64,000 nucleotides of DNA from the NCBI GenBank assembly GCA_017434045.1, contig JAFRGA010000004.1:1-64000 (forward strand), read 5' to 3'. How positions within the stretch are numbered: the stretch's first letter is position 1; each line of letters starts with the position of its first letter. This document shows, one piece after another, positions 10,268 through 32,171 of this stretch. The notes under the pieces are model-generated. The model ran no database searches. It was not told the DNA's origin and saw only the letters and a program-made list of their open reading frames with translations. The translations under genes and the position numbers were made by a program. This stretch comes from Eggerthellaceae bacterium (GTDB lineage Bacteria; Actinomycetota; Coriobacteriia; Coriobacteriales; Eggerthellaceae).

Positions 10268-10450
10268 TTCGCTCTCCATGTTTCGGCTACCATCCACCCA
10301 TGCACAGAACAGGCTTCAGGCGTGTTTGCGTACGTCCGATAATCTTAGCATCAGAAAAGATGTTTGCCTGAAAGTTCATATGGTATCCAGCTGAAGATAG
10401 ACACCACCCATGCGGACAAGCTCAGGCTTTACGCTGGATCTGTCCACCCG

Positions 10451-10546
10451 GCCCGCATTCTGCCCGCAGGCCCCTCCGCCAGGCGGGCCGGGCGGACGGC
10501 CCGCATGCTGCCCGCAGGCCCCTCTGCCAGGCGAGCCGGGCGGACG
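10451..10546. repeat. 48-bp GC-rich tandem repeat, two copies
   Basis: Two head-to-tail 48-bp units (10451-10498 and 10499-10546) begin GCCCGCAT and contain CCGCCAGGCGGGCCGGGCGG. They differ at about three positions, and a partial third unit follows. Each unit can fold through GCC/GGC-rich arms. It is non-coding and forms the left flank of the phased array. Confidence 0.85.
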
Positions 10547-10631
10547 GCCCGATATGGGTTCGGGCCTTGCATCGGTTTGCAGAGTTTTGGGAGAATGCGC
10601 GAGAGCACGAGCTGGCGGCGGCCGGGCAGCC

Positions 10632-11380
10632 GTGCACTTCCCCTCGATTCCCGCACGATGCCATGCACTTCGCCCTTCTTCCTGCACGGGGACGTGCACT
10701 TCCCCCGTATTCCTGCACAGGGACGTGCACTTCCCCCGAATCCTTGCATCCTGTCGTGCATTTCCCCCGAATCCTTGCATTGCCGCGAACTCGTGCAAGG
10801 AAACAGGCGAAGTGCACGGCTGCCTGCAAGGATATAGCTGAAGTGCACGGCGAAACGGGCGTCCGGCGGGCCTTTCGACGTGCACTTCCCCGATTTCCTT
10901 GCACGAAATTGTGCCCCTGCAAGGAATCGGGCGAAGTGCACGCCTGGCTGCAGGAAAAGCAGGGAAGTGCACGGCGCGGATTAGGGGGGCTGCAAGGATT
11001 CCCGCGAAGTGCACGACAAGGATGCGGCCAGCTGCAAGGAACCGGGGGAAGCGCACGGCGCAAGTGTGGCTGGCTGCAGGAAAATAGGGGAAGTGCACGG
11101 ATCGGGTTCGGCGGCCTGCAAGAAAAGCCCAGAAGTGCACGGCGCGGCCTCGACGCGCTGCAGGAAAAATGGGGAAGTGCACGGCGGGGGGTGCGTCCTG
11201 CCGCAAGGAATCGGGCGAAGTGCACGGCTGCCTGCAGGAAAACGGCGGAAGCGCGCGCGATCGTTGGCGTCAGGCCCTTCTCGTGCATTTCCCCATCATC
11301 CCTGCACCCAAGAAATTTCATGCAAGGATATGGGGGAAATGTACGACGAACTGCAGCGAAACGGGGGAAATGAACGGAAA
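10632..11380. repeat. Phased array of a degenerate 26-bp motif at 31- or 42-bp intervals
   Basis: About twenty units share the pattern CTGCAAGGAAnnGGGGGAAG then TGCACG. Five units in reverse orientation start at 10632, 10663, 10694, 10725 and 10756, exactly 31 bp apart. Forward units start at 10793, 10824, 10917, 10948, 10990, 11032, 11074, 11116, 11158, 11201 and 11232, giving steps of 31, 42 or once 43 bp. Stray reverse units sit at 10880 and 11283, and forward units at 11320 and 11351. The 11-bp quantum is one DNA helical turn, so all motifs face the same side of the helix. Long open frames cross it in several frames, but 31-bp steps break any shared frame, so I treat it as non-coding. Confidence 0.85.
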
Positions 11381-11551
11381 ACCGCGTGCCGTGCAGGTCG
11401 AAAAACGCTCGTTTCCGGCATATCGCTGCACGAGTTTTCCTATGTGCGGCAAATGCGGGGAACTGTGCGAAAAAGGCCGTGCGGGCCGGGCGGGCGGACC
11501 CGTTGAGAGCGCGGAAGGCTTGACGGGGGCATCTACCTTGTGCGGCCATGC

Positions 11552-12136
11552 GGCCGTCCGCCGAAGGGGTGAGCCGCTTCCGAAGGCGGGCAGCGGGATG
11601 GCGTGCGAGGCGAGAGATTACCGCCGGAGGGCCGTAGGCGAACCCCTTCGTGCGGGCGACCTGACAGAGAGGCCTGTAGGCCGAGTGCGGGCCGGGCTGG
11701 CTGACCTGCCAAAAAACTACAAAGCTCCTCTGCCAAGCCGTACGCCCGGAGGGGTGAGCCGCTTCCGAAGGGTCCGGGCGCCCGGAGAGCAGCCCTGTGG
11801 GCTATTCTCAGCGAGGACGGGCAAGCTTCAGCTTGCCCCCGTGCATGCTTCCAGAACTATTTCCCGAATGCGCGGAGCGCAGTCAGGAACGCATAACCTC
11901 GTAGAATCATTGCCGCCGGAGGGCCGTAGGCGAACCCCTCGGGCGGGCGGCCTGTCAGAGAGGCCTGTAGGCCGAGTGCGGGCCGGGCGGGCTGACCTGC
12001 CAAAAAACTACAAAGCTCCTCTGCCAAGCCGTACGCCCGAAGGGGTGAGCCGCTTCCGAAGGCGGGCAGCGGGATGGCGTGCGAGGCGAGAGATTACCGC
12101 CGGAGGGCCGTAGGCGAACCCCTACGGGCGGACGAC
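11552..12136. repeat. Cluster of family A palindromes with a direct duplication
   Basis: Three family A units occur here: 11552-11661, 11737-11952 (with element B inside) and 12028-12136. Each is bounded by arms of the type GCCCGAAGGGGTGAGCCGC and its partner GTAGGCGAACCCC. A stretch of about 140-160 bp beginning near ATTACCGCCGGAGGGCCGTA (11618-11780) is repeated at 11910-12062, including the spacer CTGCCAAAAAACTACAAAGC. The cluster lies directly upstream of the menaquinone methyltransferase gene. No coding capacity is supported. Confidence 0.85.
11777..11890 (-). repeat. Structured element B, copy 1 (inside a family A palindrome)
   Basis: 114 bp in minus orientation. In order it has a stem from TTCCTGA to TTCGGGAA enclosing a TGCGC/GCGCA hairpin, a near-perfect hairpin GGGCAAGCTGAAGCTTGCCC, and a third hairpin GAGAATAGCCC/GGGCTGCTCTC. 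Copies at 36.2 and 61.7 kb keep the same pairings with different bases. It is called a repeat because its transcription is not shown; a non-coding RNA is possible. Confidence 0.75.
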
Positions 12137-12194
12137 CCGCTAGAAACGAGAACCTGACACAAGACCCGGGCACATGTCGGGTTATACTGAGCGC

Positions 12195-25476: not shown

Positions 25477-26430
25477 TTACACGGCAACGACCTTGCCTTC
25501 GTATTTCTTGGCGATGTAATCCTTGACTTCCTGAGAAGTGATGGCGTCGACGAGCACCTTGGTCTTCTCGGTGTTCTCGTTGCCTTCCTTCACGACCAGC
25601 ACGTTCACGTACGGGGAATCGCTCGCCTCTGTCAGGAGGACCAGGTCGGAACCGAGATTCGCACCGATAGCGTAATTCGTGTTGATGACTGCGATGTCAA
25701 CATCCGGCAGAATGGTCGGCACGGTGGCAGCTTCGACTTCCTTGAACTGGAGGTTCTTCGGATTGCTCGTGATGTCCTTGATCGTTGCGACGGGATTCTC
25801 CGGATCGCTCAGCTCGATGAGACCGGCCTTCTGGAGCAGCAGCAGGGAGCGGGCCTCGTTGGTGGTATCGTTGGGCACTGCAACCGTAGCGCCATCGGCG
25901 AGCTCGTCGAGAGAAGCGGTCTTGCCGGCGTAGATGCTCATCGGCTCGATATGCACGGCAGCCACGTTAACCAAATGCGTGTTGTTGTCCTTGTTGAACG
26001 AATCGAGATACGGGATGTGCTGGAAGTAGTTCGCGTCGATCTCGCCATCTTCGGTAGCCGTATTCGGAAGCACGTAGTCCGTGAACTCGACGACCTCAAG
26101 CTTGTAGCCAGCCTTCTCGACCAGAGGAACAACTACGTCGTTCAGGATCTCCGCATGGGGAGTCGGGCTAGCGCCCACCTTGATGACGTTGTCGCCGGAC
26201 GCCTCCGAAGCGCTTGCCGCGCTTGCGCTCGAGGCGCTCTCGTCCGAGGCGCTTGCAGAGCTCTCCGCGCTCGACGCGCTTTCGCTCGACGCGCTTGCAG
26301 AGCTACCTGCACTCGATGCGCTCGAGCTTGCCGAGTTTCCCCCGCATGCAGCGAGGCCGAATGCCAACACGATTCCGAGTGCGGCAAGCACAATTGCCGC
26401 AAGCTTCCTGTTCTTCTTTATTGTCTGCAT
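25477..26430 (-). CDS. metQ: Methionine-binding lipoprotein MetQ (NlpA family)
   Basis: Substrate-binding lipoprotein, 317 residues. The signal peptide ends in lipobox LAAC (Cys about 29), followed by a striking Ser/Ala/Glu-only linker to about residue 78. The mature fold starts VIKVGASPTPHAEIL and has DANYFQHIPYL and IEPMSIYAGK, typical of the NlpA/MetQ family. First gene of the metQ-N-I transport operon. No methionine riboswitch was recognised upstream. Confidence 0.94.
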   Translation of the reverse strand: MQTIKKNRKLAAIVLAALGIVLAFGLAACGGNSASSSASSAGSSASASSESASSAESSASASDESASSASAASASEASGDNVIKVGASPTPHAEILNDVVVPLVEKAGYKLEVVEFTDYVLPNTATEDGEIDANYFQHIPYLDSFNKDNNTHLVNVAAVHIEPMSIYAGKTASLDELADGATVAVPNDTTNEARSLLLLQKAGLIELSDPENPVATIKDITSNPKNLQFKEVEAATVPTILPDVDIAVINTNYAIGANLGSDLVLLTEASDSPYVNVLVVKEGNENTEKTKVLVDAITSQEVKDYIAKKYEGKVVAV

Positions 26431-31737: not shown

Positions 31738-32171
31738 CGTCCACCGTCCTTTCTCGTTTTCCTACCTTACCTCAACCATGTACGCAAAGCAAAACACACG
31801 GTAACGGAGCGCCTGTGGCCAGCGGCCAGCGCCCTGCAAGCGGCCGGCGCCCCACAAGCGGCCGATGCTCCGTTAGCAATCGACTCCCCGCTACGCAAAG
31901 CAAAGCACATGGCAACGGAGCACCGGCTGACGACGCCCCACAAACGGCCGGTGCCCCATCAGCCGCCGATGTTCCGCCAGCGGCCGTTGCTCCGCCAGCG
32001 GCCGGCGCCATGCCAGAAGCCCTGCAACTTTGCAAGCAAATCCAGGCGATGCAAGCCCTTCGTGCTCCAAATTGAAATGTTTTCAACGAGGACAATCGAG
32101 GGCCATTTATCATGGTTTTTTAAGCCGGACGCCAAGAAAGAGCCAGCGAAACCCGGAAGCAAGGCCCGAGA
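31738..32171. repeat. Minisatellite-like region between tilS and a hydrolase gene
   Basis: 434 bp without a supported gene. TACGCAAAGCAAAnCACAnG followed by GnAACGGAGC occurs at 31781 and again at 31892, an offset of 111 bp. Between and after these copies are many imperfect units of about 18-21 bp of the type GCCGATGCTCCGCCAGCGGCC (to about 32010). Short open frames exist on both strands but consist only of low-complexity Ala/Pro/Gly repeats, so coding is doubtful. Confidence 0.7.

Follow-up and report, generated by a model that had tools for sequence, protein, structure and literature searches.

What holds a series of degenerate sites at fixed distances when the sites themselves drift, and is such a series a single chromosomal locus or one member of something larger? 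The question is raised by an array in an Eggerthellaceae genome, with a small minus-strand open reading frame upstream of tatA to its left and plus-strand ubiE/menG to its right. It falls within the window, by which we mean the whole 64,000-nucleotide stretch analyzed here (contig JAFRGA010000004.1, positions 1 to 64,000). The initial annotation had proposed that selection keeps its motifs on one DNA face for cooperative binding by a protein, at an iteron, a centromere or a nucleoid-organizing site. With a probability of roughly 60%, we read the array as one non-coding member of an element family that is dispersed and probably mobile, and whose sites would be bound by a Vsr/DUF559-like partner protein.

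Architecture of the array

A position weight matrix (PWM) scan identified 22 copies of a 25-bp asymmetric site with the consensus TGCARGRANNNNGGGGAAGTGCACG, 8 on the minus and 14 on the plus strand, using a score cut above background (the best score in five shuffled windows was 9.9). Conservation is strongest in the TGCA at the 5' end, the GAA in the second half and the TG..CG at the 3' end, and weakest at positions 9-12. The array first described at 10632-11380 is real and larger than was stated: its end lies about 90 bp further on (Table 1). Five minus-strand copies begin at 10631, 10662, 10693, 10724 and 10755, in the exact 31-bp steps reported earlier. From 10918 onward the plus-strand copies follow at steps of 31, 42, 42, 42, 42, 42, 43 and 31 bp, which keeps the 31/42/43 series of the initial annotation with one 42-bp step fewer. 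The single change of orientation once placed near 10790 gives way to a fixed alternating order: a 188-bp module, -[39]+[31]+[54]-[39]+, is present twice (10755-10942 and 11282-11469), at an offset of 527 bp, or 17 x 31.

Table 1. Features of the array and its surroundings (window coordinates)
Feature	Position	Strand	Basis
Whole array, 22 sites	10631..11469	.	PWM scan
31-bp arm: five minus-strand sites at exact 31-bp steps; the last is the first site of core A	10631..10779	-	Site positions and tandem repeat
Core A, -[39]+[31]+[54]-[39]+, 188 bp	10755..10942	+	Profile match, 4.9e-44
Inverted pair (- then +), 39 bp start to start, 64 bp in total; most rigid unit	10755..10818	.	43/44 in pooled arrays
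42-bp arm: nine plus-strand sites	10918..11257	+	Site positions
Core B, layout as core A; diverged GAAATG-type sites, final two weak	11282..11469	+	Profile match, 4.9e-40
DNA missing from the orthologous UBA3686 spacer (array and other repeats), approximate	10392..12150	.	Ends judged by eye
Flanking repeat, also beside arrays at other loci (contigs 40, 48, 57); possibly part of the element	11470..11666	.

Other repeats occur in the window. Positions 11470-12150 belong to a separate dispersed family with 67 matches in the genome, often found directly beside arrays (contigs 40, 48 and 57) and also alone. A 48-bp unit is repeated twice in tandem at 10449-10551 (94% matches) and is related to the sequence at 11476-11500. 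The tandem repeats at 26204-26323 and 31821-32004, with units of 42 and 18 bp (multiples of 3), are probably in coding sequence.

Dispersed arrays with a common spacing grammar

The motif is not confined to this locus. With up to 3 mismatches allowed, the genome contains 152 copies (the pattern read backwards gives 0), and they are grouped in at least 16 arrays, all intergenic, the largest with about 20 sites. Sixteen arrays are flanked by unrelated housekeeping genes, which show every relative orientation, and not one of these arrays falls within a called gene. This distribution rules out plasmid iterons or a parS-type centromere, which would occupy one or a few loci next to rep or parAB genes. 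A CRISPR array is likewise inconsistent with the alternating orientation, the two step lengths and the degenerate sites.

Translation of the region, which would have told against the initial reading, finds no support. Because 31 is not a multiple of 3, the array steps would shift the reading frame, and a coding repeat is ruled out by the mixture of 31- and 42-bp steps together with the missing gene calls inside this genome's arrays. Across eight genomes, 56 of 58 arrays have no overlapping gene call, and of the two overlaps one seems to be a start-codon artefact and the other a low-scoring call. Where both flanking genes of these 58 arrays were called, 17 pairs are ++, 10 are --, 16 are convergent and 6 divergent.

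Neighboring sites obey a narrow set of distances, counted here in this genome (G000) pooled with one array of the genus mate G009. Minus-then-plus neighbors are exactly 39 bp apart in 43 of 44 cases; plus-then-minus neighbors are exactly 54 bp apart in 20 of 31, with 4 more at 49; and same-strand neighbors lie at 31 bp (56 cases) or 42-43 bp (27 cases), with few others. The five-site core of 188 bp aligns in 19 copies (18 from this genome, one from G009) with zero indels, and carries 1.18-1.30 bits per position in the sites versus 0.68-0.85 in the spacers. One further core of this genome (contig 50, 13105-13291), which has a 1-bp deletion, was left out of that alignment. The initial statement that spacing is held better than sequence is therefore upheld by 19 cores without an indel and with diverged spacers.

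Such regularity could be inherited passively, from repeats spread by slippage or recombination with no selection on phase. Arrays within the genome are in fact homologous over hundreds of bases at 70-87% identity, and since they are mutually homologous their spacing is not independent evidence within one genome. Against this reading stand the 19 cores, in which the spacers have diverged further than the sites while no indel has accumulated (the excluded core with its 1-bp deletion being the exception), and the comparison between species with other motifs, where spacing changes in steps of one helical turn. We consider passive inheritance distinctly unlikely, and it is already disfavored by these data.

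The inverted arrangement of the sites invites another explanation, namely that the stems they could form in a transcribed structured RNA or a DNA cruciform are the functional unit. Inverted 25-bp sites are able to pair, and in other genera near-perfect inverted repeats with arms of about 50 bp at most follow the gene discussed below. Stem partners, however, are no more alike than non-partners (p 0.69 for the 39-bp pairs and 0.61 for the 54-bp pairs), no arm covariation is seen over 52 cores from all species, and Rfam matches are at chance level only. An RNA hairpin is ruled out on covariation, compensatory pairing being missing, and the RNA-or-cruciform reading as a whole appears very improbable. 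The lack of covariation between partner arms favors a lattice of protein-bound sites over an RNA stem. The initial proposal of protein-bound sites thus survives as a better reading than RNA or coding sequence, and what finds no support is the single iteron, centromere or nucleoid locus, given at least 16 intergenic arrays, an empty site in a close relative and nuclease-bracketing arrays in related species.

Same layout, other motifs, in related genomes

Arrays of this kind occur in seven further genomes of the genus, detected with a sequence-only profile of the core where the arrays were diverged; their site sequences are nearly all different and their layout is the same. The motifs are nGGACgGAaatgccgGAAGTGCnnG in G002, TGcngGAAaAcggccTtnAtGTACG in G005, TGCAGcGATATgangtnCaTGTGtA in G007 (24 copies of its own motif, 0 in the control), tGngccgATAntgGGTCCATGGACG in G010 and tGGCAggATAnCgGgGAAGTGCGcc in G013. 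G009 has a motif near-identical to that of the window, and G008 has further, different motifs, found by a motif-free scan for the -a+b-a+ geometry only. In about 118 other genomes of the family, the exact motif of this genome gave isolated matches only, with 2-3 mismatches and 0-2 per genome, at about the reversed-control rate. When about 760 kb from three other genera were scanned for the lattice, all scores were low.

Several motif families can coexist: contigs 6, 20, 75 and 127 of G002 carry a second family, TGGCnGAAAACCC..AAGTGaaCG, with spacings of 39 and 86-87 bp, beside motif a in the same genome. A central GTGACCTGGG(GTTTT)-like element lies between repeat arms in several motif families and genera (loci L208, L212, L203, L201, L258, L248, L178, L191 and L285). 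In G008 (L212, C12, 4925-7190), compared with G005 (L154, C213), the segment between two gatC-adjacent arrays appears inverted, as if by recombination between arrays.

The preference for 31- and 42-bp spacing, whose absence from related genomes had been named as a reason to abandon the helical interpretation, is kept in the genus mates with other motifs. There, same-strand sites are separated by 31, 41-43, 52-53 or 62 bp, minus-then-plus pairs by 39 or 49 bp, and plus-then-minus pairs by 13, 23, 43, 54 or 85 bp. With one reference point per site and site lists from six genomes, these distances fit multiples of 10.35-10.4 bp (mean cosine 0.885), and 0 of 2,000 random sets fitted as well; since the species are related, the spacing classes are not fully independent. 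The steps are helical, as first supposed, with this best common period across the compared genomes, and the changes in spacing between species are themselves close to whole helical turns. Whole-turn spacings kept across (related) species are what a DNA-protein lattice predicts. The 5' half of the site is common to the families, and the 3' half varies between paralogs and species; a shared 5' half with a changing 3' half suggests that the motif is replaced in step with the protein and that the helical lattice persists.

A nuclease-like gene between arrays

A protein of about 317 amino acids recurs beside arrays in related species, and 13 members of its clade (A2) were aligned. At 6 of these 13 loci, from five genomes, cores of one motif lie on both sides of the gene (G007 C29, G004 C174, G014 C46, G008 C28, G008 C41 and G002 C20). 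At four others a core flanks the gene on one side at least (G002 C45, G005 C164, G006 C152 and G008 C22), and the flanks of the other 3 are without a clear array. Paralogs within one genome are paired with different motifs: in G002, the C45 gene with motif a and the C20 gene with motif b, and in G008 the C41 gene with motif c. Proteins with higher identity go with more similar 3' halves of the site (Mantel r 0.65, p 0.0002, n = 9, with motif instances read by eye), a correlation that is possible without binding, since a linked gene and array correlate by descent.

As to its family, 12 of the 13 members match Pfam DUF559/MTES_1575 (best 1.6e-6, with weak profile scores for some members). Among solved chains, the closest in sequence is 3r3p (E 0.0018), labelled 'mobile intron protein', which we take to be I-Bth0305I. 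D229, E240 and D253 are invariant and H247 is near-invariant among the 13, so that the catalytic residues of the PD-(D/E)XK/Vsr type are present. These matches weakly suggest a PD-(D/E)XK, Vsr/DUF559-like nuclease, a placement consistent across profiles. The wider protein family is spread through the order, with up to 14 copies per genome. In other genera, 62% of 37 paralog loci have an inverted pair of at least 20/25 within 450 bp, versus 9-25% of control genes; near-perfect inverted repeats lie 3' of the gene, and in several cases the arms enclose a central GTGACCTGGG-like element.

In the present genome the partner family was not found with two profiles, the second without a positive control, and a gene remnant near the arrays was not found either. 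The assembly is 76.7% complete in 103 contigs, with arrays at the ends of contigs 3, 52 and 67; completeness of 77% and contigs that break off inside arrays could, but need not, account for the missing gene. The closest array family with a linked gene is motif a of G002, and a partner for the window is proposed through it, on the grounds that it shares a central CGAAACGGG-type element with the window and adjoins the C45 gene.

Empty and occupied positions

The history of individual positions offers a further view of the arrays. In UBA3686, whose tatC is 91% identical, the orthologous spacer is about 165 bp long and lacks the array. The window spacer is about 1.75 kb longer, and the array makes up about half of that excess. 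The array is also absent from the orthologous locus of other tatA relatives. Elsewhere, three species pairs share the genes flanking an array, at least one pair on both sides, with differing motifs. As flanking genes are shared between species with different motifs, some array positions appear to be old with the motif replaced, and not every array is a recent insertion.

These observations bear on the possibility that the arrays are static chromosome sites bound by a host architectural or segregation protein, the Vsr-like genes being mere neighbors that insert near or into them. Helical phasing and a cooperative layout would suit an architectural protein, some arrays sit at orthologous positions despite the change of motif, and the partner gene is missing from the searches of this incomplete genome. 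Yet static sites do not predict an empty orthologous site, nor cores on both sides of a gene at six loci in five genomes, nor paralogs in one genome with different motifs, and several motif families per genome would be odd for one host protein. On balance we think this explanation unlikely. At least 16 copies, the empty site and the nuclease-bracketing arrays in relatives argue instead for an element that is dispersed, is probably mobile and has a DNA-binding protein of its own.

Comparison with known repeat systems

The closest parallel in organization is the REP/BIME-RAYT system, in which dispersed intergenic repeats alternate at regular spacing, motifs are species-specific with several families per genome, and the cognate gene is bracketed by its own repeats (PMC2817692). 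The arrays described here resemble these REPINs in being dispersed, intergenic, alternating and regularly spaced, with species-specific motifs and several families per genome. Bracketing of the cognate gene by its own repeats is seen in the related species (on both sides in 6 of 13 cases, on at least one side in 4 more) and was not found in this genome. In contrast, the enzyme here is PD-(D/E)XK Vsr/DUF559-like instead of an HUH Y1 protein (PF01797), the 25-bp sites are asymmetric, with neither a GTAG/GTGG head nor a palindromic stem, and the arrays follow whole-helical-turn spacings with arms that do not covary.

Could the arrays themselves be REP/BIME sequences mobilized by RAYT (Y1) transposases? 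In favor, the repeats are alternating, regularly spaced and intergenic, and RAYT-sized Y1 proteins occur in 12 of 15 genomes of the genus. Against this, Y1 proteins were not found in the array-bearing G005, G007 (96% complete) and G009, the sites are non-palindromic and lack a GTAG head, these genomes have GTAG-type repeats as elements of their own, and the array-bracketed gene is DUF559-like. This explanation is extremely unlikely, and RAYT as the partner is refuted by the three array-bearing genomes in which Y1 was not found and by a bracketed gene of another family. We read the arrays as probably working like REP/BIME-RAYT while being unrelated to it.

Separate REP-like elements exist in the genus: GTAG-containing palindromic repeats lie at L202 15904 (G008) and L084 2140, and most genomes of the genus encode RAYT-sized PF01797 proteins. 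The present genome has a strong IS200-type Y1 transposase match near a contig end (C7:44957-45313, 139 bits, 164-aa frame).

Other mobile elements share some features. In the ends of Tn7 (TnsB), Mu and En/Spm (subterminal repeats), several short sites in fixed orientation build a nucleoprotein complex. The arrays likewise consist of several short sites in fixed orientation, but no DDE transposase was seen next to them, and the proposed ends consist of pseudo-palindromic cores that recur to either side of the gene. BOX-type repeats and MITEs are modular and intergenic with a variable number of internal units, as the arrays are; the helical lattice, the replacement of motifs between species and the linked nuclease gene set the arrays apart. 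The Vsr-like EDxHD homing endonuclease I-Bth0305I, nearest solved relative of the partner family by sequence, dimerizes on a target of nearly 60 bp (PMC3943268), close to the 64 bp of the inverted pair. Unlike that mobile intron, the arrays show no intron sign, and the gene is enclosed by multi-site arrays of a kind found without it as well. An earlier description of such arrays was not found in the open-access papers searched, the subscription literature lying mostly outside the search.

A proposed element

Taken together, the data suggest that the arrays belong to an undescribed mobile element, for which they would provide both the binding sites and the ends. Each 25-bp asymmetric site would be bound by protein, and the fixed order of orientations with whole-turn spacings would place the bound subunits on one DNA face in one complex. 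The inverted pair (minus, 14 bp, plus; 64 bp) would form a rigid unit, two such pairs around a spacer making the core. The likely binder is the PD-(D/E)XK protein of about 317 residues, encoded in relatives between two cores of its own motif (array-gene-array). Probably dimeric, this Vsr-like protein would sit on inverted pairs, with further copies in register along the same face, and the nucleoprotein complex may serve maintenance or movement of the element. Dispersed arrays would then be gene-less copies, spread by the protein or by recombination at its breaks, and would relate to the nuclease gene as REPINs do to RAYTs. We infer binding of the sites and cutting by this protein, mobility of the element, and a partner of this type, present or past, for the copies in this genome.

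A broader claim is that these arrays represent a class of mobile or selfish elements in bacteria that is so far undescribed, in which the helically phased site lattice of a Vsr/DUF559-like nuclease is both binding platform and element end, and DNA specificity is replaced from species to species along with the dispersed copies, the three-dimensional layout being kept; for this we would put the odds at about even. If true, it would be a second, unrelated solution beside REP/RAYT that combines repeats with a bracketed enzyme, and it would suggest a function for the large uncharacterized DUF559/Vsr-like family. It would also supply sets of natural protein-site pairs that differ in specificity at a fixed geometry, useful for studying DNA recognition and the rules of assembly. 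The element would, if real, also help to explain the long repeat-filled intergenic regions in these genomes.
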